Of a DNA stretch of 39,598 bases, positions 14,364 to 23,658 are shown one piece after another. Made by a program: the position numbers and the translations under genes. This DNA comes from Paracoccaceae bacterium (GTDB taxonomy: Bacteria > Pseudomonadota > Alphaproteobacteria > Rhodobacterales > Rhodobacteraceae): assembly GCA_030950185.1 (NCBI GenBank), contig JAUZRU010000064.1, positions 1-39,598 of the forward strand, given 5' to 3'. The notes beneath the pieces were generated by a model. That model had not been told where the DNA came from. It saw only the letters and a list, made by a program, of their open reading frames with translations, and did not search any database. Every line of letters begins with the position of its first letter. The first letter of the stretch is position 1.

Positions 14364-15196
14364 GCGTTCAACACCTCTTGCCGCAGGTCCTCATCAACAT
14401 CGGGGCGGATCCCGAACCAGTTTTCAAAACCCGGCACCGCCTGGTGCAACAGCATTCCCAGCCCGTCAACCGTTTGGCAACCCATTTTTTCGGCCTCGAC
14501 AAGAAGGGGCGTGCGCAAGGGGGTATAAACGATATCGGTCACCAATGTTCCCTTGCGCAGCTTGGCCAGGGGCAGGTTCAGCGGTGGCTGACCGGTCATG
14601 CCAAGCGAAGTGGTGTTGACCAGCATATCGACCTTGGCCATCGCCGCGCCCGCCTTTGTCCAGTCAACCACCTTGATGCGCGCGCCGAAATGTTCGGCCA
14701 GCATCTCGGCCCGGCTGCGGGTACGATTGACAAGATAGATTTCAGGCACCCGTTCAGACAAAAGCGATGAAAGGATCGCACGAGACGCGCCGCCCGCCCC
14801 GATAACCATGGCCGGGCCGGTAGAGGCAGACCAGGCTGGCACATGCTGTTTGATATTGGCGATGAATCCATATCCGTCGGTGTTGTCGGCCTGAATGCGC
14901 CCGTCCTTGCGAAATGTCAGGGTATTTGCCGCACCTATCAACGCGGCCCGGTCGGTAATGACATCGGCAAGGCCAACAACCGCCTCTTTATAAGGGATCG
15001 TCACATTTGCGCCCCTGAAGCCAAGGCGGATCAGTGCCTCGATCCCATAGGCAAGATTGTCTTGTGACAGCTCGATGGGGATATAATGGCCCCGCAGGTC
15101 GTATTTTCTCAGCCAGTAACCATGAACGCGCGGTGACAGGCTGTGCGCGATCGGCGAACCTATCACTGCCGCAAGCGGTATTGATTCAGTGCTCAT
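14360..15196 (-). CDS. aroE: Shikimate dehydrogenase (NADP)
   Basis: 278 residues. The substrate pocket is seen in GSPIAHSLSPRVHGYWL and NVTIPYK (catalytic Lys70). The NADP-binding turn is GAGGASRAILSSL with VNRTRSRAEML after it. The C-terminal GLGMLLHQA is also typical. The enzyme reduces 3-dehydroshikimate in aromatic amino acid synthesis. It overlaps maf and coaE by four bases on either side. Confidence 0.96.
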   Translation of the reverse strand: MSTESIPLAAVIGSPIAHSLSPRVHGYWLRKYDLRGHYIPIELSQDNLAYGIEALIRLGFRGANVTIPYKEAVVGLADVITDRAALIGAANTLTFRKDGRIQADNTDGYGFIANIKQHVPAWSASTGPAMVIGAGGASRAILSSLLSERVPEIYLVNRTRSRAEMLAEHFGARIKVVDWTKAGAAMAKVDMLVNTTSLGMTGQPPLNLPLAKLRKGTLVTDIVYTPLRTPLLVEAEKMGCQTVDGLGMLLHQAVPGFENWFGIRPDVDEDLRQEVLNA

Positions 15197-15792
15197 CTTT
15201 CCAGCAGCCCCGCCTGTTCAAGGTAGCCCAGGACGTCGATCAAGGGCATCCCGAGAATTGTGAACCAATCACCTTCTATCGCGGAAAACAATCTTACGCC
15301 AATATCTTCAAGCTTGTAACAACCGACTGTTGTCAAAACGTCCTCACCGATTCGCGCAAGATAGCTGTCGAGAAACCTGTCGGAAAAGGGTTTCATTTCC
15401 AGTCTGGCCACCCCAACCTTGCGCCAGACCGGCTGACCGTTGATGGCAATGACGGCGGCTGCCAGCAATCGGTGCCGCTTGCCGCGCAAGGTTTTCAGGT
15501 GCTGTCGCGCCTGATCCATATCCTTGGGCTTGTCGAAAATCACGCCGTCAAATTCAAGCACCTGGTCAGACCCGATGACCGCCACATCGGCGTTCCGGTT
15601 CGAAACCTGCACCGCCTTGGCCTCGGCCAGGGCATCGGCAATATCAAAAGGCGCCAGCCCTTCGGCCAGCAGCGCCGCCTTGATCGCAGTTTCATCGACG
15701 CGCGCGGGTCGAACGCCAAAAGCAACGCCAGCACGTGCAAGCATTTCCTGTCTTGCTGTCGAGCCAGAGGCAAGGATGATGTGTTCAACCAT
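15193..15792 (-). CDS. maf: Maf-family nucleoside triphosphate pyrophosphatase
   Basis: 199 residues. The ATG at 15792 begins the family N-terminus MVEHIILASGSTARQEML; the longer frame to 15912 has no family similarity and would run into the origin region. Further motifs are VDETAIKA, IGSDQVLEFDG and, at the C-terminus, EGDWFTILGMPL. Maf proteins hydrolyse non-canonical or modified nucleotides to monophosphates. First gene of the leftward unit beside the origin. Confidence 0.94.
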   Translation of the reverse strand: MVEHIILASGSTARQEMLARAGVAFGVRPARVDETAIKAALLAEGLAPFDIADALAEAKAVQVSNRNADVAVIGSDQVLEFDGVIFDKPKDMDQARQHLKTLRGKRHRLLAAAVIAINGQPVWRKVGVARLEMKPFSDRFLDSYLARIGEDVLTTVGCYKLEDIGVRLFSAIEGDWFTILGMPLIDVLGYLEQAGLLER

Positions 15793-16221
15793 TGTAGAAC
15801 CCTGTGGAAAAGAATTGCGCAGAGCGGGGCAGTTTGTCGAAAATCGGACGATAGCCCGAAATCCTGCATAACATGCCCGGTTGTAAAGCCGCTCGGCGCT
15901 GGTTGTCCACAAGGCATGGTTTTTTCCCGCTTATGTGGATATGCCGTTTACGCCGCGATAACCGTTGATTCATACCATGCAGTCCACAGAGATATCCACA
16001 ACAAAGGATTTTTTAAATATATGAAAAACAACGATAAATATCACTTATATCGACATGTTGATCAATCTTTTCATCGGGAACGGTATAAATTTTATTTTGA
16101 ATTATTGTGGATGAAAACCTTGATCCCGATGTTTCCACTGTATCTAAAACAACAACGTCTTTCTCTTTAATATTATTTGTTTTAGGAAGCGGGGAACCGT
16201 CTGTGCAAAATCCGGAACCAA
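15793..16221. other. oriC: Chromosomal replication origin (oriC) region
   Basis: A 429-base stretch without a credible gene between divergent maf and hemJ, visibly more AT-rich on its right half (about 16005-16185) than the surroundings. Five 9-mers differ from the DnaA box TTATCCACA by a single base: 15803-15811 (minus), 15903-15911 (plus), 15934-15942 (minus), 15992-16000 (plus) and 16106-16114 (minus). One GANTC methylation site (CcrM type) is at 15967. Genes on both sides run outward, and parA/parB and parS sites are nearby. The gene neighbourhood (maf side against hem/rho side) matches the known origin location of several alphaproteobacteria. hemE, often next to this origin, is not in the window. 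Confidence 0.85.
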
Positions 16222-16677
16222 ATGATGGCCGAAACGCTTTCCAACCTGTATCCTTGGATAAAGGCGCTACATATCATTTCGGTGATCACATGGATGGCCG
16301 GCATCTTTTACCTGCCACGCCTGTTTATCTATCACGTCGAACTGACAGCGAATTCCGACGTTCCGGCTAAAACATTCGAGACGATGGAACGCAAGCTTTT
16401 GCGGATGATCATGAACCCGGCGATGATCGCGACCTGGACATTCGGGGGTTTGCTTATCTCTACCCCGGGGATCGTTGACTGGTCGCAGGGGTGGCCATGG
16501 GTCAAGGCGACGATGGTTCTGATCATGACGTGGTTCCACCATTGGCTGGGCCGTAGGCGTAAAGAGCTTGCCAATGGCACATGCCAGACAACATCGAAAA
16601 CCTTCAGATTGATGAACGAGGTCCCTACCCTGCTGATGATCGTCATCGTGTTGATGGTGGTCGTCAAGCCGTTCTGA
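16222..16677 (+). CDS. hemJ: HemJ-type protoporphyrinogen IX oxidase
   Basis: 151 residues; tandem ATG codons at 16222 and 16225 leave a one-residue ambiguity. Four predicted membrane helices. The conserved histidine is seen in WIKALHIISVITWMAGIFYLPRL (split over the first helix), followed by FETMERKLLRMIMNPAM, the heme/substrate-related region. HemJ (UPF0093) oxidises protoporphyrinogen IX to protoporphyrin IX in heme synthesis and replaces HemG/HemY in most alphaproteobacteria. It is the first gene to the right of the origin. Confidence 0.93.
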   Translation: MMAETLSNLYPWIKALHIISVITWMAGIFYLPRLFIYHVELTANSDVPAKTFETMERKLLRMIMNPAMIATWTFGGLLISTPGIVDWSQGWPWVKATMVLIMTWFHHWLGRRRKELANGTCQTTSKTFRLMNEVPTLLMIVIVLMVVVKPF

Positions 16678-16810: not shown

Positions 16811-18082
16811 ATGACACTAGAAAAGATGTTCCTTTCGGAACTGAAAAAGAAAAGCCCCGCCGACCTTTTGAACATGGCCGAGGAACTCGAGATCGAGAAC
16901 GCCTCGACGATGCGCAAGGGCGATATGCTGTTTGCCATCCTCAAGGAACTGGCCGAAGAAGGCGTCGAAATTTCCGGCGACGGTGTGCTTGAGGTGATGC
17001 AGGATGGTTTTGGTTTCCTGCGTTCGCCCGAGGCGAACTATCTGCCGGGCCCCGACGACATTTATGTCAGCCCGGAACAGATCAGAAAGTTTTCACTGCG
17101 CACCGGCGATACCGTCGAGGGCGTCATCCAGGCGCCGCGCGAAAACGAGCGGTATTTTGGTCTGGTAAAGGTTTCCCAGATCAACTTTGAAGATCCCGAG
17201 ATGGTCAAGCACAAGGTCCATTTCGACAACCTCACACCGCTTTACCCGGATGAGCGCCTGAAGATGGAGGTCGAAGACCCCACCATAAAGGACAAGACCG
17301 CGCGAGTGATCGATCTGGTCGCGCCTATCGGCAAGGGCCAGCGGGGGCTGATCGTGGCACCGCCACGCACCGGTAAAACAGTGATCCTGCAAAACATCGC
17401 CAACTCTATCGCGCATAACCACCCCGAGGTCTATCTTATCGTTCTGCTGATCGACGAACGGCCCGAGGAAGTCACCGACATGCAGCGCAGCGTCAAGGGC
17501 GAGGTCATCTCTTCGACATTTGACGAACCCGCAACACGCCATGTGGCGGTGTCGGAAATGGTGATCGAAAAGGCCAAACGCCTGGTGGAACACAAGCGCG
17601 ACGTGGTGATCCTGCTGGATTCAATCACCCGTCTGGGCCGCGCGTTCAACACGGTTGTGCCCAGCTCGGGAAAGGTGCTGACGGGTGGTGTGGATGCAAA
17701 CGCATTGCAAAGGCCCAAGCGGTTCTTTGGCGCCGCGCGAAATATCGAAGAGGGCGGTTCATTGACCATCATCGCGACCGCGCTGATCGACACCGGCAGC
17801 CGTATGGACGAGGTGATTTTCGAAGAATTCAAGGGAACCGGCAACAGTGAACTGGTGCTGGATCGCAAGGTCGCCGACAAGCGCGTATTCCCGGCAATCG
17901 ACATCCTCAAATCCGGTACCCGGAAAGAAGAGCTGCTGGTTGACAAGGGCGATCTGACCAAGACCTATGTGCTGCGCCGGATTCTCAATCCGATGGGCAC
18001 GACCGATGCAATCGAATTCCTGCTCAGCAAGCTCAAACAGACCAAGAGCAACGCGGAATTCTTTGACTCGATGAACACCTGA
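16811..18082 (+). CDS. rho: Transcription termination factor Rho
   Basis: 423 residues. The N-terminal domain starts [21 protein letters not shown], followed by the cold-shock-like RNA-binding domain with [23 protein letters not shown] (primary site, about 57-80). The ATPase core has Walker A APPRTGKT near 182-189, [13 protein letters not shown], Walker [15 protein letters not shown], the Q-loop region [20 protein letters not shown] and an R-loop end. It is a hexameric RNA-dependent ATPase that releases RNA polymerase from untranslated transcripts. Full length, with no unusual insertion. Confidence 0.98.
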
Positions 18083-19412: not shown

Positions 19413-21290
19413 ATGTTTCACGTGAAACATGGCGGGTTCGATGTTGTGGTAATCGGGGGCGGGCATGCGGGCGCTGACGCCGCCCATGCCGCTGCCAGAA
19501 TGGGCGCCAATACGGCACTGGTCACGCACCGTTTTGACAGAATTGGCGAGATGTCCTGCAATCCGGCCATTGGCGGCCTGGGCAAGGGTCACCTTGTTAG
19601 GGAAATTGACGCGTTGGATGGTCTGATGGGCCGTGTCGCTGATCGGGCGGGAATTCAGTTCCGGTTGTTGAATCGCCGCAAGGGCCCGGCCGTTCGTGGC
19701 CCGCGCGCCCAGGCCGATCGGGCGTTGTATCGCGCGGCGATGCAGGGCGAGATCGCGAACACGCCGAACCTAACTGTGATCGAGGCCGAGGTCGCGGATC
19801 TGAGGGTAGAGGTTGGCAGGGTCACTGGCGTCATACTGGGTGACGGGTCCGTTATTCCGGCCAATGCGGTTGTACTGACAACCGGCACATTTTTGCGCGG
19901 CGTTATTCATATCGGCAACGAACAAAAGCCCGGCGGCCGCATGGGCGACAGGCCCGCTATTCCCCTTGCCGAGCGCATTGACGATCTGGGCCTTCCCATG
20001 GGCCGGCTCAAGACCGGGACTCCCCCTCGGCTGGACGGCAGAACCATCAACTGGGATATTCTGGATTCCCAGCCGGGCGACGAAAACCCCGTGATGTTTT
20101 CATTTTTGTCAAAAGGCCCGTCAGTTCGGCAGGTTTCATGCGGGATCACCCACACAAATGAGAAGACGCATGAGGTAATAAGAAAAAACCTTGAAAAATC
20201 CGCGATGTATGGCGGGTATATCGAGGGTGTCGGCCCGCGCTACTGCCCATCTATAGAAGATAAGGTTGTGCGGTTTTCCGAAAAAGCCTCGCATCAGGTG
20301 TTTCTGGAACCCGAGGGTTTGAACACGACCACAGTCTATCCGAACGGTATTTCGACATCGCTACCGTTTGAGGTTCAGCAGGAATATGTGGCCTCTATCA
20401 AGGGGCTAGAAAATGCGCGGATCACGCAGCCCGGCTATGCTATTGAATATGATTACGTAGATCCCCGCGCGCTGACGCCGACGCTGATGGTCAGGACGCT
20501 GCCAGGGCTTTACCTTGCAGGCCAGATCAACGGCACCACCGGTTATGAAGAGGCCGCGGCGCAAGGCTTGGTTGCCGGCCTTAACGCTGCGTGTGCCGCA
20601 AAGAGCATGGAGCCGGTGATTTTCAGGCGCTCTGACGCATATATTGGTGTCATGATTGACGATCTGGTCACAAGAGGGGTGACAGAACCCTACAGAATGT
20701 TCACCTCGAGGGCAGAGTTCCGACTATCGCTGCGAGCCGATAACGCGGACCAACGGCTGACCCCAAAGGGTATCGAGATCGGCTGTATAAGCGCGGAAAG
20801 GAAAATCGCGTTCAACGAGAAGATGGACAAGCTTCAAAAGGCCCAGGAGCTGTTGAAATCCCTTACACTTACCCCGCAAGAGGCTGAAAAATACGGTATA
20901 AAGGTAAACCGCGACGGTACACGCCGAAATGGCGTTGATCTGCTGTCCTTCCCCGAGGTTACCTTCGAGTCATTGAAGAGCGTCTGGCCCGATCTTGCAC
21001 AAGTCGAACCCGCGACAGCGGAGCAAGTCGAATGCGACGCGGTCTACGCCAATTATATCGAAAGGCAGCGGCGCGATGTCGAGGCGCTTGAAAAAGACGA
21101 GGCGCTGAAGATTCCCGACGATTTCGACTATACAACGATCTCGGGGCTTTCGAACGAGTTGAAGGGAAAGCTTGCAACGATTCGCCCGCAGACATTGGGG
21201 CAGGCGGGGCGGATTGATGGCATGACGCCGGCGGCGCTCACACTGATCCTTTCACGAATTCGTCGAGAATCGGGAAGACAAAGCGCATGA
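19413..21290 (+). CDS. mnmG: tRNA uridine-5-carboxymethylaminomethyl modification enzyme, FAD subunit
   Basis: 625 residues. The dinucleotide-binding turn GGGHAG is at 15-20. Other family signatures are [23 protein letters not shown] (split: two conserved cysteine-containing loops are expected, and CG in [10 protein letters not shown] is the second), [11 protein letters not shown], and [18 protein letters not shown] near residue 370. It binds FAD and NADH and partners MnmE. The first codons ATG TTT CAC GTG AAA CAT lie within a parS site, which fixes the N-terminus MFHVKH. The stop overlaps the rsmG start (ATGA). Confidence 0.97.
19414..19429. promoter_or_regulatory. parS: parS centromere site 1, at the mnmG start codon
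   Basis: TGTTTCACGTGAAACA, a perfect 16-bp palindrome identical to the consensus ParB-binding site; flanking A and T extend it to 18 bp. It begins at the second base of the mnmG start codon, so ParB binding and spreading would cover the translation start of mnmG. Confidence 0.95.
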
Positions 21291-21922
21291 GGGGGCATAA
21301 TCACGCCATTCAGCGCCTGAAAAACGTGGCCGATGTTTCACGTGAAACAATCGCGGCGCTTGAAACATATGAAAAGCTGCTGAGAAAGTGGAATCCTGCG
21401 ATAAACCTTGTCAGCGCCTCTACGCTGAACGACATCTGGCATCGGCATTTCCTAGACTCCGCCCAGATATGGCGGCTTTGCCCCCCGGGCGCTACAAAAT
21501 GGGTTGACCTCGGCAGTGGCGGAGGGTTTCCAGGGCTCGTCGTGGCCGTTATCGCCAAAGAGGTTGCGCCAGAGCTGGAATTGGTTCTGGTCGAATCCGA
21601 CGTCAGGAAGGCAACCTTCCTGCGCGAGGCGAGTCGCGCCCTGTCGCTCAAAACCACCATCCACGCGACACGCATCGAAGCGCTTGAACCGCAGAATGGT
21701 GATGTGGTTTCGGCCCGTGCGTTGGCGCCGCTGCCGAAATTGTTGCCATTGGCAGCCCGGCATTTAGGAAATTCCGGAATCTGCTTGTTTTCCAAGGGTG
21801 AATCTGTCGAAACGGAATTGACTGACGCAAGGAAATGCTGGAAATTCACCTTGGAAAAATCGCCCAGCATCACCGGATCTGGCGGGATCATACTGAAAAT
21901 CGGAGGTCTTGGGCGTGTCTGA
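21287..21922 (+). CDS. rsmG: 16S rRNA (guanine527-N7)-methyltransferase
   Basis: 211 residues. The Rossmann methyltransferase fold shows the SAM loop [17 protein letters not shown] near 73-89, and the [17 protein letters not shown] strand-helix typical of RsmG follows. NLVSAS and HRHFLDSAQ before it are conserved in the family. It methylates G527 of 16S rRNA. Upstream ATGA coupling with mnmG and an eight-base overlap with parA place it in the mnmE-mnmG-rsmG-parA-parB array. It contains the second parS. Confidence 0.96.
21334..21349. promoter_or_regulatory. parS: parS centromere site 2, inside rsmG
   Basis: A second exact copy of TGTTTCACGTGAAACA, 1920 bases from the first and about 570 bases before parA. 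Here it is read in another frame (codons for V-S-R-E-T) than in mnmG (F-H-V-K-H). Confidence 0.95.
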
Positions 21923-22718
21923 CCCAAAGAAATCGGGATCAAAAACCAAAATCATTGCAATAGCAAACCAGAAAGGCGGCGTTGGAAAGACAACAACCGC
22001 GATAAATCTGGGAACCGCGCTGGCGGCAGTTGAAAAAAACGTGTTGCTGATCGACCTTGATCCACAAGGAAATGCGTCAACCGGCTTGGGGATTGAGCCA
22101 ACCGAGCGAGAAACCACCACCTACGACTTGTTGCTTGGCGATGCCAGGCTGCAAGATGTTGTGTGCGAAACGCAGGTGCCTTACTTGTTGGTTTCTCCGG
22201 CAAATACCGATCTGGCCTCGGCAGACATAGACCTGGCAAATACCGACAACCGAACGACCAGGCTGCGCGATGTGCTGAACAGGGCAGAGGTCAAGGACTA
22301 TAACTTTGACTATATCCTTATCGACTGTCCGCCGTCCCTCAATCTGTTGACGGTTAACGCGATGGCGGCCGCAGATTCCGTTCTTGTCCCCCTGCAATCG
22401 GAATTCTTCGCATTGGAGGGGCTTTCACAGTTGATGCTGTCCATCCGCGAGGTCAGGCAGGCGTTAAATCCCACGCTGCGCATCGAGGGGGTTGTCCTGA
22501 CCATGCATGACAGCAGGAACAACCTTTCAAAGCAGGTTGAAAAGGATGTGCGCGACAATCTGGGCGCCCTGGTCTTCAAGACCGTGATTCCGCGAAATGT
22601 CAGACTGTCGGAGGCGCCTTCTTATGCCATGCCCGCGCTGCTATATGATCATAAAAGCGCCGGCAGCATCGCCTATCAAAAGCTGGCCGCCGAGGTCCTG
22701 CGCCGGAACCACAGATAA
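21915..22718 (+). CDS. parA: Chromosome partitioning ATPase ParA (Soj)
   Basis: 267 residues from the GTG at 21915, which has GGAGG eight bases upstream; a TTG at 21909 in the same frame is too near that site. Deviant Walker A KGGVGKTTT is at 20-28, Walker A' is in LLIDLDPQGNASTGLG, and Walker B in ILIDCPPSLNLLTVNAM. The protein binds DNA as an ATP dimer and moves ParB-parS complexes apart. It directly precedes parB. Confidence 0.97.
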   Translation: MSDPKKSGSKTKIIAIANQKGGVGKTTTAINLGTALAAVEKNVLLIDLDPQGNASTGLGIEPTERETTTYDLLLGDARLQDVVCETQVPYLLVSPANTDLASADIDLANTDNRTTRLRDVLNRAEVKDYNFDYILIDCPPSLNLLTVNAMAAADSVLVPLQSEFFALEGLSQLMLSIREVRQALNPTLRIEGVVLTMHDSRNNLSKQVEKDVRDNLGALVFKTVIPRNVRLSEAPSYAMPALLYDHKSAGSIAYQKLAAEVLRRNHR

Positions 22719-22749
22719 CGGATAAGATTAATATAAGGGGTTGAAAACA

Positions 22750-23658
22750 ATGGCGAAAAAATCTCCTCCGAAAAGGGGCCTGGGGCGCGGCCTGTCGGCC
22801 CTTATGGCCGACGCGGATATTGTTTCGCCGGCCGCCCCCACCGCGGACAAGGCGAACAGCCCGGATTTGCTGGTCCCGATCGAAAAACTGCGCCCGAATC
22901 CCGATCAGCCCCGGCGCGATTTCTCGCCCGAGGATCTTGACGAGCTGGCCGCCTCGATCAGGGAAAAGGGGATCATTCAGCCCCTTCTGGTGCGCAACGA
23001 CCCCCAGCACCCCGGCGAATACCAGATCGTGGCGGGCGAACGCCGCTGGCGGGCGGCCCAGCGTGCCAATCTGCACGACATTCCGGTTCTCGTTCGCGAG
23101 CTGAACGATACCGAAGTGATTGAAATAGCCATCATCGAAAACATCCAACGCGCCAATCTGAACGCGGTGGAAGAGGCCATGGGCTATCGCCAATTGATGG
23201 ATCGTTTTGGCCATACCCAGGAAAAGCTGGCCGAGGCATTGGGGAAAAGCCGATCGCATATCGCAAATCTGCTGCGGCTTTTGACTCTGCCTGAAGAGGT
23301 GCTGACATGGCTTCGTGAAGGCAAGCTGACCGCAGGGCATGCGCGCGCGCTTATTACCGCAGAAAACCCGACCGAACTGGCGCGCAAGGTCATCACAAAG
23401 GGCCTGTCCGTTCGCCAGACCGAGGCGCTAGCCAAAAATCCCAAGGTGGAAACAAAGGAAAGAAAGCCCAAGGAAAACAAAGCGGAAAAAGACGCCGATA
23501 CCAGGGCGCTCGAGCTTGATCTAACGGCAAGCCTGGGGATGGAGGTCAGGATAGACCACCGGGCAGGCGGGGAATCCGGCGTTGTCAGCATCCAGTACAA
23601 AAACCTGGAAGAGCTGGACGAACTGTGCCAGATCCTTGCCCGGACGCATCCCGCCTAG
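22750..23658 (+). CDS. parB: Chromosome partitioning protein ParB
   Basis: 302 residues from the ATG at 22750 (AAGGGG nine bases before). The N-terminal RGLGRGLSALM is the ParA-contact region. The CTPase/ParB domain follows with PNPDQPRRDF, LLVRNDPQHPGEYQIVAGER and GERRWRAAQRANL near 95-107, and ENIQRANLNAVEEAMGY. The HTH, KLAEALGKSRSHIANLLRLL, is near 165-184, and a C-terminal dimerisation domain ends the protein. It loads at parS and spreads as a CTP-dependent clamp. The stop codon overlaps hemW, which comes from the other strand. Confidence 0.97.
   Translation: MAKKSPPKRGLGRGLSALMADADIVSPAAPTADKANSPDLLVPIEKLRPNPDQPRRDFSPEDLDELAASIREKGIIQPLLVRNDPQHPGEYQIVAGERRWRAAQRANLHDIPVLVRELNDTEVIEIAIIENIQRANLNAVEEAMGYRQLMDRFGHTQEKLAEALGKSRSHIANLLRLLTLPEEVLTWLREGKLTAGHARALITAENPTELARKVITKGLSVRQTEALAKNPKVETKERKPKENKAEKDADTRALELDLTASLGMEVRIDHRAGGESGVVSIQYKNLEELDELCQILARTHPA

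Follow-up and report, generated by a model that had tools for sequence, protein, structure and literature searches.

The 429-bp intergenic region between maf and hemJ is almost certainly the chromosomal origin of replication (oriC) of a Rhodobacteraceae bacterium, an assignment that we base on a cluster of DnaA boxes, the GC-skew minimum, gene order and conservation in relatives. Within this region the window, the whole stretch of 39,598 nucleotides that was analysed, carries a conserved element at 16121-16189 that the earlier note did not contain and that emerged from an alignment of the DNA before hemJ across relatives. Judged by its layout, the element is a module resembling the BUS/DnaA-trio. 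This module and its decay in one genus, that of the window, are the part worth following, the origin itself being mostly expected. We consider the full explanation very likely, namely an oriC at which DnaA on the outer boxes would form an oligomer reaching the hemJ-proximal module and opening the duplex there; taken by itself, the module is the probable opening site. The locus is laid out as follows.

15793-16221, unstranded: putative oriC, the maf-hemJ intergenic region of 429 bp, recognised by box cluster, skew minimum and conservation in relatives
15193-15792, minus strand: maf (Pfam PF02545), with its start codon at 15790-15792
16222-16677, plus strand: hemJ (UPF0093; Pfam PF03653)
16811-18082, plus strand: rho

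In other genera, the module comprises a DnaA box (sometimes two) followed by CCCTAC, ATC triplets and CTTTTCTTT; in Celeribacter halophilus (L013) it reads TAATCCAGA-TTATCCACA-GGCC-CTACTAA-ATCATCATC-CTTTTCTTTT and continues into an AT tract. The corresponding parts in the window are these.

16121-16129, plus strand: decayed upstream box TGATCCCGA, three mismatches, in the place of TAATCCACA or TAATCCAGA in other genera
16131-16139, plus strand: decayed downstream box GTTTCCACT, three mismatches, in the place of TTATCCACA in, for example, Celeribacter
16144-16167, plus strand: trio-like tract CTA-A-(AAC)3-GTC-TTTCTCTT, with the matrix core at 16148-16167, a core found before hemJ in relatives and before rho where hemJ is absent
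16168-16189, plus strand: AT tract ending TTTTAGGAAG, the distal part of the module, from the alignment of relatives

As far as the consulted parts of PMC8287927 and PMC10721633 describe the BUS/DnaA-trio of Bacillus subtilis, the module of other genera shares with it a box, a short GC-rich spacer, CTA (3'-GAT-5' on the opposite strand), a trinucleotide tract and an AT tract; the B. subtilis trios are 3'-GAT-5', whereas those of other genera are mostly ATC (3'-TAG-5'). No description of the module was found in the open-access literature searched, a body of text exclusive of subscription journals and supplements, and a BUS table covering the family may exist.

HemJ had matches in 117 family genomes, from which the comparison took only the 30 best loci, the window's own included, a sample that leans to close HemJ. 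The final set held 58 loci, eight from the genus (window included) and 50 others. It was reached by dropping L030 (no comparable region), L133 and L147 (duplicates of L007 and L012), L004, L006 and L046 (on the same contigs as L045, L047 and L005) and L031-L043 (Devosia, Kaistia and other non-family records, among which a box with one mismatch lay within 900 nt in L039 alone, L043 holding only 134 nt there). The 20-base core was scored with a position matrix whose training set was the same 58 loci; it gave a mean of 21.6 and a lowest score of 5.0, reaching at least 10 in 54 of the 58 and exceeding the best shuffle in 50. The same matrix averaged -7.0 on coding stretches (maximum 7.5) and 0.9 on one shuffle per locus (maximum 15.3). 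Four loci with core scores below 10 (L129, L135, L141 and L154) were left out of the box and triplet counts.

To judge by mismatches, the strongest departure from high-affinity DnaA boxes is the hemJ-proximal pair at 16121-16139, and it is characteristic of the genus. Across the 46 other loci, the best box in the 45 nt before the core has zero, one, two, three or four mismatches in 4, 28, 12, 1 and 1 cases, whereas the best module box in the genus has three in 6/8 and four in 2/8, at a shuffle level of 3.5 (genus versus others, Mann-Whitney p = 4e-6 with relatedness ignored). A second module box with at most two mismatches is present in 15 of the 46 other loci. The triplets have changed as well: in the three that precede the T tract, the middle base is T in 107/138 cases in other genera versus 3/24 in the genus, the prevailing type being ATC in the former (94/138) and NAC in the latter (21/24). 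The final C of the triplet is found in 125/138 and 24/24, respectively.

Set against the B. subtilis BUS, the genus thus carries boxes with three to four mismatches and, in its 21/24 NAC triplets, T in place of A as the middle base of the read strand. In B. subtilis, according to the relevant part of PMC10721633, replacing the middle A of a trio by G or T lowered strand separation and C was tolerated. With a read-strand middle T, in the ATC phase, in 21 of its 24 triplets, the module of the genus would therefore be weak by the B. subtilis standard. Deviant trios without a middle adenine are suspected to exist, in the wording of the part of PMC8287927 that treats them.

The decay of the module boxes could be neutral drift, with the AT tract alone needed and the outer boxes sufficing, a reading that we take seriously while leaning against it. 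All of the decay lies in one clade and so counts as one event. Moreover, PMC8287927 reports that the B. subtilis module needs only its upstream DnaA box for strand separation in vitro, and that the E. coli BUS score is relatively weak, so that origins can leave this layout. Drift alone sits poorly with the final C of the triplets, which is kept in all 24 of the genus despite the loss of the boxes; the tract seems to be still constrained.

We also applied the BUS rule as stated in the portion of PMC8287927 that defines it (a box with at most two mismatches, a spacer of at most 16 and at least three 3'-NAN-5' triplets). At the module, it was satisfied in none of the eight genus loci, the window included, and in 23 of the 50 others. 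Anywhere in 450 nt, it was satisfied in 8/8 genus loci and 47/50 others, but also in 26% of the others' shuffles. When the best candidate of each genus member was compared with 200 shuffles, the counts were 0 for the window, 2 for L047 and 22 to 84 for the other six. The window's best candidate lies on the minus strand, a box at 16056-16064 with seven triplets; the best match in L045 is a different one, with a run of three triplets. Read along the minus strand, the stretch 16024-16064 consists of TGATCAACA, 11 bases and then seven triplets with middle T, and it is a possible second opening site.

The outer boxes, whose positions relative to the trio core recur in the genus, and the central AT-rich stretch of the intergenic region are as follows.

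15803-15811, minus strand: DnaA box 1, TTTTCCACA; a minus-strand box lies at -342 to -346 from the trio core in 5/8 genus members
15903-15911, plus strand: DnaA box 2, TTGTCCACA; a plus-strand box lies at -241 to -245 in 6/8 genus members
15934-15942, minus strand: DnaA box 3, ATATCCACA; a minus-strand box lies at -212 to -214 in 3/8 genus members
15992-16000, plus strand: DnaA box 4, ATATCCACA; a plus-strand box lies at -154 to -168 in 5/8 genus members
16106-16114, minus strand: DnaA box 5, TCATCCACA; a minus-strand box lies at -41/-42 in 3/8 genus members
16000-16050, unstranded: central AT-rich stretch, the least stable 50 bp of the intergenic region and a second candidate melting site

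The earlier note had remarked on an AT-rich half of the gap, and the composition agrees: GC content falls from 58% in the window to 41% in the intergenic region and 23% in its leanest 60-bp step, at 16001, which places an easily melted AT-rich segment beside the boxes. The stability profile averaged over relatives has two weak places, one at the module and a second roughly -150 to -120 relative to the core. The weakest 50-bp segment falls at the module in 6/8 genus loci and 25/42 others (42 of the other loci entered this comparison, in which windows far beyond the core are hardly covered).

These data bear on the proposal that the element is a hemJ promoter or leader and no part of the origin, melting being confined to the central AT-rich stretch between boxes 4 and 5. 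We regard this as unlikely, although several observations are in its favour. Across the 58 loci, 44-103 bp separate the start of the core from the hemJ match that follows it; in the window, the weakest 50 bp begins at 16000, within the central stretch and not at the module, and in 17/42 other loci the least stable stretch is found at -154 to -116; and the minus-strand box at 16056-16064, with two mismatches, is joined to seven triplets in NAN phase, an arrangement seen in 0/200 shuffles. That minus-strand candidate, however, was not found by the BUS rule in the nearest relative, L045, and the average stability minimum of both groups, genus and others, lies at the element. In 44/46 loci of other genera, in addition, the element is joined to a DnaA box that has two mismatches at most.

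Genomes that lack a close hemJ argue further against the promoter. Among 120 sampled family genomes, 21 had only a remote HemJ match (27-34% identity) and three had none. We searched for maf in these 24 and used the 21 with a close maf, dropping G078, G098 and G121 (remote maf). Beside maf, the core matrix, applied as it stood and not retrained, beat all 20 shuffles in 17/21; the misses were L215, L225, L230 and L231, and the match in L219 is oddly placed and doubtful. Within the 45 nt before the best core, 17/21 had a DnaA box with no more than two mismatches, and rho, recognised by a nine-residue motif, was the next gene in 20/21. Since the module persists in 17 of 21 genomes without hemJ at this place, it is hardly a hemJ promoter.

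A bolder proposal concerns the protein as well as the DNA. According to the part of PMC10721633 on trio capture, the residues of B. subtilis DnaA involved are Asn187, Ile190, Ile193, Arg202 and Glu228. Aligning the genome's own DnaA with the B. subtilis DnaA of entry 8btg and counting along the alignment, we found Tyr197, Val200, Leu203, Lys212 and Glu238 as their respective equivalents. Tyr197, which stands where B. subtilis has Asn187, is not specific to the genus, being present in 10/10 genus proteins and 25/26 others. Relative to the 26 proteins of other genera, 32 DnaA positions distinguish the genus, many of them common to Amylibacter, and four fall within 197-212 (202, 205, 207 and 210). 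At 205, beside the pocket that reads the single strand, Phe replaces Asp/Glu in the genus, two Amylibacter genomes and the MAG NORP153, and the carriers form one clade of 11 (FastTree support 1.0). In this clade, 10/11 have no more than one middle T among their triplets, vs 7/37 others, and 9/11 have a best module box with at least three mismatches, vs 1/37; this comparison (11 vs 37) used rounded core scores, so L135 was kept. Because all of these changes lie in one clade, the joint change of module and DnaA amounts to one event and not a correlation, and co-evolution of the two is a hypothesis suggested by the sequences. Its strong form seems quite unlikely to us: that the clade uniting the genus with Amylibacter rewrote the opening code, through genus-wide loss of the anchor box, a shift from ATC to NAC triplets and a DnaA changed beside its pocket (Phe205 in all of the clade, with Ser202 and Gly210 confined to the genus), such that its DnaA would open its own module and not that of the family. 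Two dnaA genes in the set appear broken: in G015 (Paracoccus cavernae; L210 and L211) the gene is split over two frames, possibly by sequencing errors, and in G002 (L164 and L165) it is interrupted by a stop, possibly also a sequencing error.

Returning to the module as the probable opening site, its anatomy and conservation can be read off the sequence, and from them we infer DnaA occupancy, oligomer reach and strand parting. DnaA would fill the five outer boxes (15803-16114), and its oligomer would extend to the hemJ-proximal module. In other genera, one DnaA box, or sometimes a tandem pair, would anchor the oligomer, the ATC-repeat tract being the single strand that it grips. The duplex would then part over the triplets and the AT tract, perhaps with help from the central AT-rich stretch, and helicases would load and send forks in both directions. 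In the genus, with its anchor boxes decayed and its triplets changed, recruitment probably proceeds by cooperative spreading from the outer boxes and not by direct strong binding. Box 5 lies 6 bp from the module, in the opposite orientation. Two readings remain for the genus: its DnaA reads another code, or the central stretch opens first and the module is a relic under other constraints.

An opening module that can be aligned suggests where Rhodobacteraceae DNA melts, and the genus offers a natural variant that has lost both features of the B. subtilis BUS, the anchor and the read-out. Should the module of the genus still be the first to melt, the BUS model would have to admit another recruitment mode; otherwise melting has shifted by about 150 bp.

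We then consider the evidence that the gap is an origin at all. The earlier note had reported five single-mismatch boxes in both orientations within about 310 bases, and we recovered all five at 15803-16114, as one-mismatch matches to TTATCCACA in 312 bp. Such matches number 10 in the whole window, against a mean of 3.68 (sd 1.97, largest 9) in shuffles. The DnaA box is not enriched across the genome itself (2,547,815 bases in 167 contigs), which has 240 matches with zero or one mismatch vs 261 for a reversed control. At that density, a Poisson scan expects 7e-6 clusters of five within 312 bp in the genome, so the cluster exceeds chance. Near-boxes per 450 nt average 3.12 in the genus, 3.16 in other genera and 0.07 in coding stretches of the same loci. 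A shifted box consensus in the genus was also considered; one-mismatch matches to TTATCCACA are no less frequent in its origins than in those of other genera.

None of the boxes in the intergenic region is perfect, as the earlier note had observed, and a perfect box is present in 28/50 origins of other genera vs 1/8 of the genus; the other contigs of the genome hold nine perfect boxes, vs eight for the reversed control. The suggestion attached to that observation, that the five boxes bind with low affinity, fits the module pair at 16121-16139 better. The positions of the outer boxes (-345, -245, -214, -156 and -42 from the core) recur in three to six of the eight genus members, and near-box counts equal those of other genera. 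One genus member, L050, had no one-mismatch box in the region.

The cumulative GC skew, whose minimum had been predicted to lie here, largely agrees. The minimum in the window is at 16377. In two contigs of the same genus it falls just before the hemJ match, at 79449 in G008:C52 (147 kb; match at 79498, 49 bp after) and at 110764 in G009:C29 (152 kb; match at 110787, 23 bp after). On chromosome 1 of Paracoccus kondratievae (2.26 Mb), followed through 40 sampled 20-kb stretches, the minimum is at about 20 kb and the maximum at about 1.16 Mb, with hemJ at 26.6 kb, an agreement within sampling error. The prediction failed in G006:C11 of the same genus (327 kb): hemJ, at 205 kb, has only a local dip at 180-200 kb beside it, and the curve reaches its overall lowest point at 320.6 kb, close to where the contig ends. 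Candidate causes are an assembly error, islands or a rearrangement. The window's own genome, being in 167 contigs, was followed within the window. The minimum thus falls at this locus in the window, two of three same-genus contigs and one Paracoccus chromosome. Gene-strand bias near hemJ gave no clean signal in three contigs.

That the gap only serves divergent promoters and has its boxes by chance, with the origin elsewhere, is highly improbable: it could appeal to the displaced minimum of G006:C11 and to the want of a perfect box, against which stand the tiny expected number of such clusters, the skew minima in the window, two same-genus contigs and Paracoccus, the excess of near-boxes over coding stretches (3.1-3.2 in origins) and the published placing of Rhodobacteraceae oriC next to maf (PMC4793288, in the part that concerns oriC). 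An origin between maf and hemJ, as first proposed, is accordingly well supported by box cluster, skew minima, gene order and conservation.

The location is ordinary for the family and not new, because the Ketogulonicigenium vulgare genome paper, in its passage based on DoriC, already reports a maf-adjacent oriC as conserved in Rhodobacteraceae (PMC4793288). That oriC resembles ours in its maf flank and DnaA boxes and differs in being an Ori-Finder location prediction, with no distal conserved module described in that passage. Ori-Finder assigned oriC in 101 Rhodobacteraceae strains by skew, GC minimum and nearness to parAB, leaving eight further strains unassigned for want of boxes or skew (PMC6699656, relevant section). 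Those origins share with this one the DnaA boxes, the minimum of GC disparity, the local GC minimum and the nearness of parAB, and differ in that the section describes no module. The remaining features of the neighbourhood are the following.

19414-19429, unstranded: parS TGTTTCACGTGAAACA, at the first codons of mnmG
21334-21349, unstranded: parS TGTTTCACGTGAAACA, within rsmG
21909-23658, plus strand: parA and parB

Genes run outward from the gap, as had been described, with maf, aroE, coaE and dnaQ leftward on its left and hemJ, rho, mnmE, mnmG, rsmG, parA and parB rightward on its right. The claim that parS and parAB are nearby also held: the genome has no exact parS palindromes other than those at 19414 and 21334, and parA and parB follow at 21909-23658. 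The gap is an intergenic region upstream of maf that holds boxes and has parAB close by, the arrangement of a maf-adjacent oriC. Both parS sites lie inside coding sequence, the first beginning at base 2 of the mnmG start codon (ATGTTTCACGTGAAACA).

The locus does not match a Caulobacter-type origin. The origin of Caulobacter and Rickettsia lies between hemE and COG1806, as the part of PMC1914354 on origin location states, whereas the flanks here are maf and hemJ. The region resembles Cori of Caulobacter crescentus as an alphaproteobacterial origin with DnaA boxes and an adjacent heme gene; it differs in lacking a hemE flank (the hemE match is on C139) and TTAA-N7-TTAA, the CtrA site, for which no match with zero or one mismatch occurs in the intergenic region.

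Scans of the window for tRNA and Rfam families gave no matches. The intergenic region has a single GANTC (CcrM) site, at 15967, and a single IHF-like site (16048, one mismatch); an E. coli-like 13-mer pattern has two one-mismatch matches and one two-mismatch match. The dnaA gene is on another contig of the genome (C25), and in G006 it shares a contig with hemJ, at a distance of about 185 kb. In Paracoccus kondratievae (G010), hemJ and the origin are in the chromosome 1 record, and the dnaA match (C2:1316466-1317806) is on another replicon or contig.
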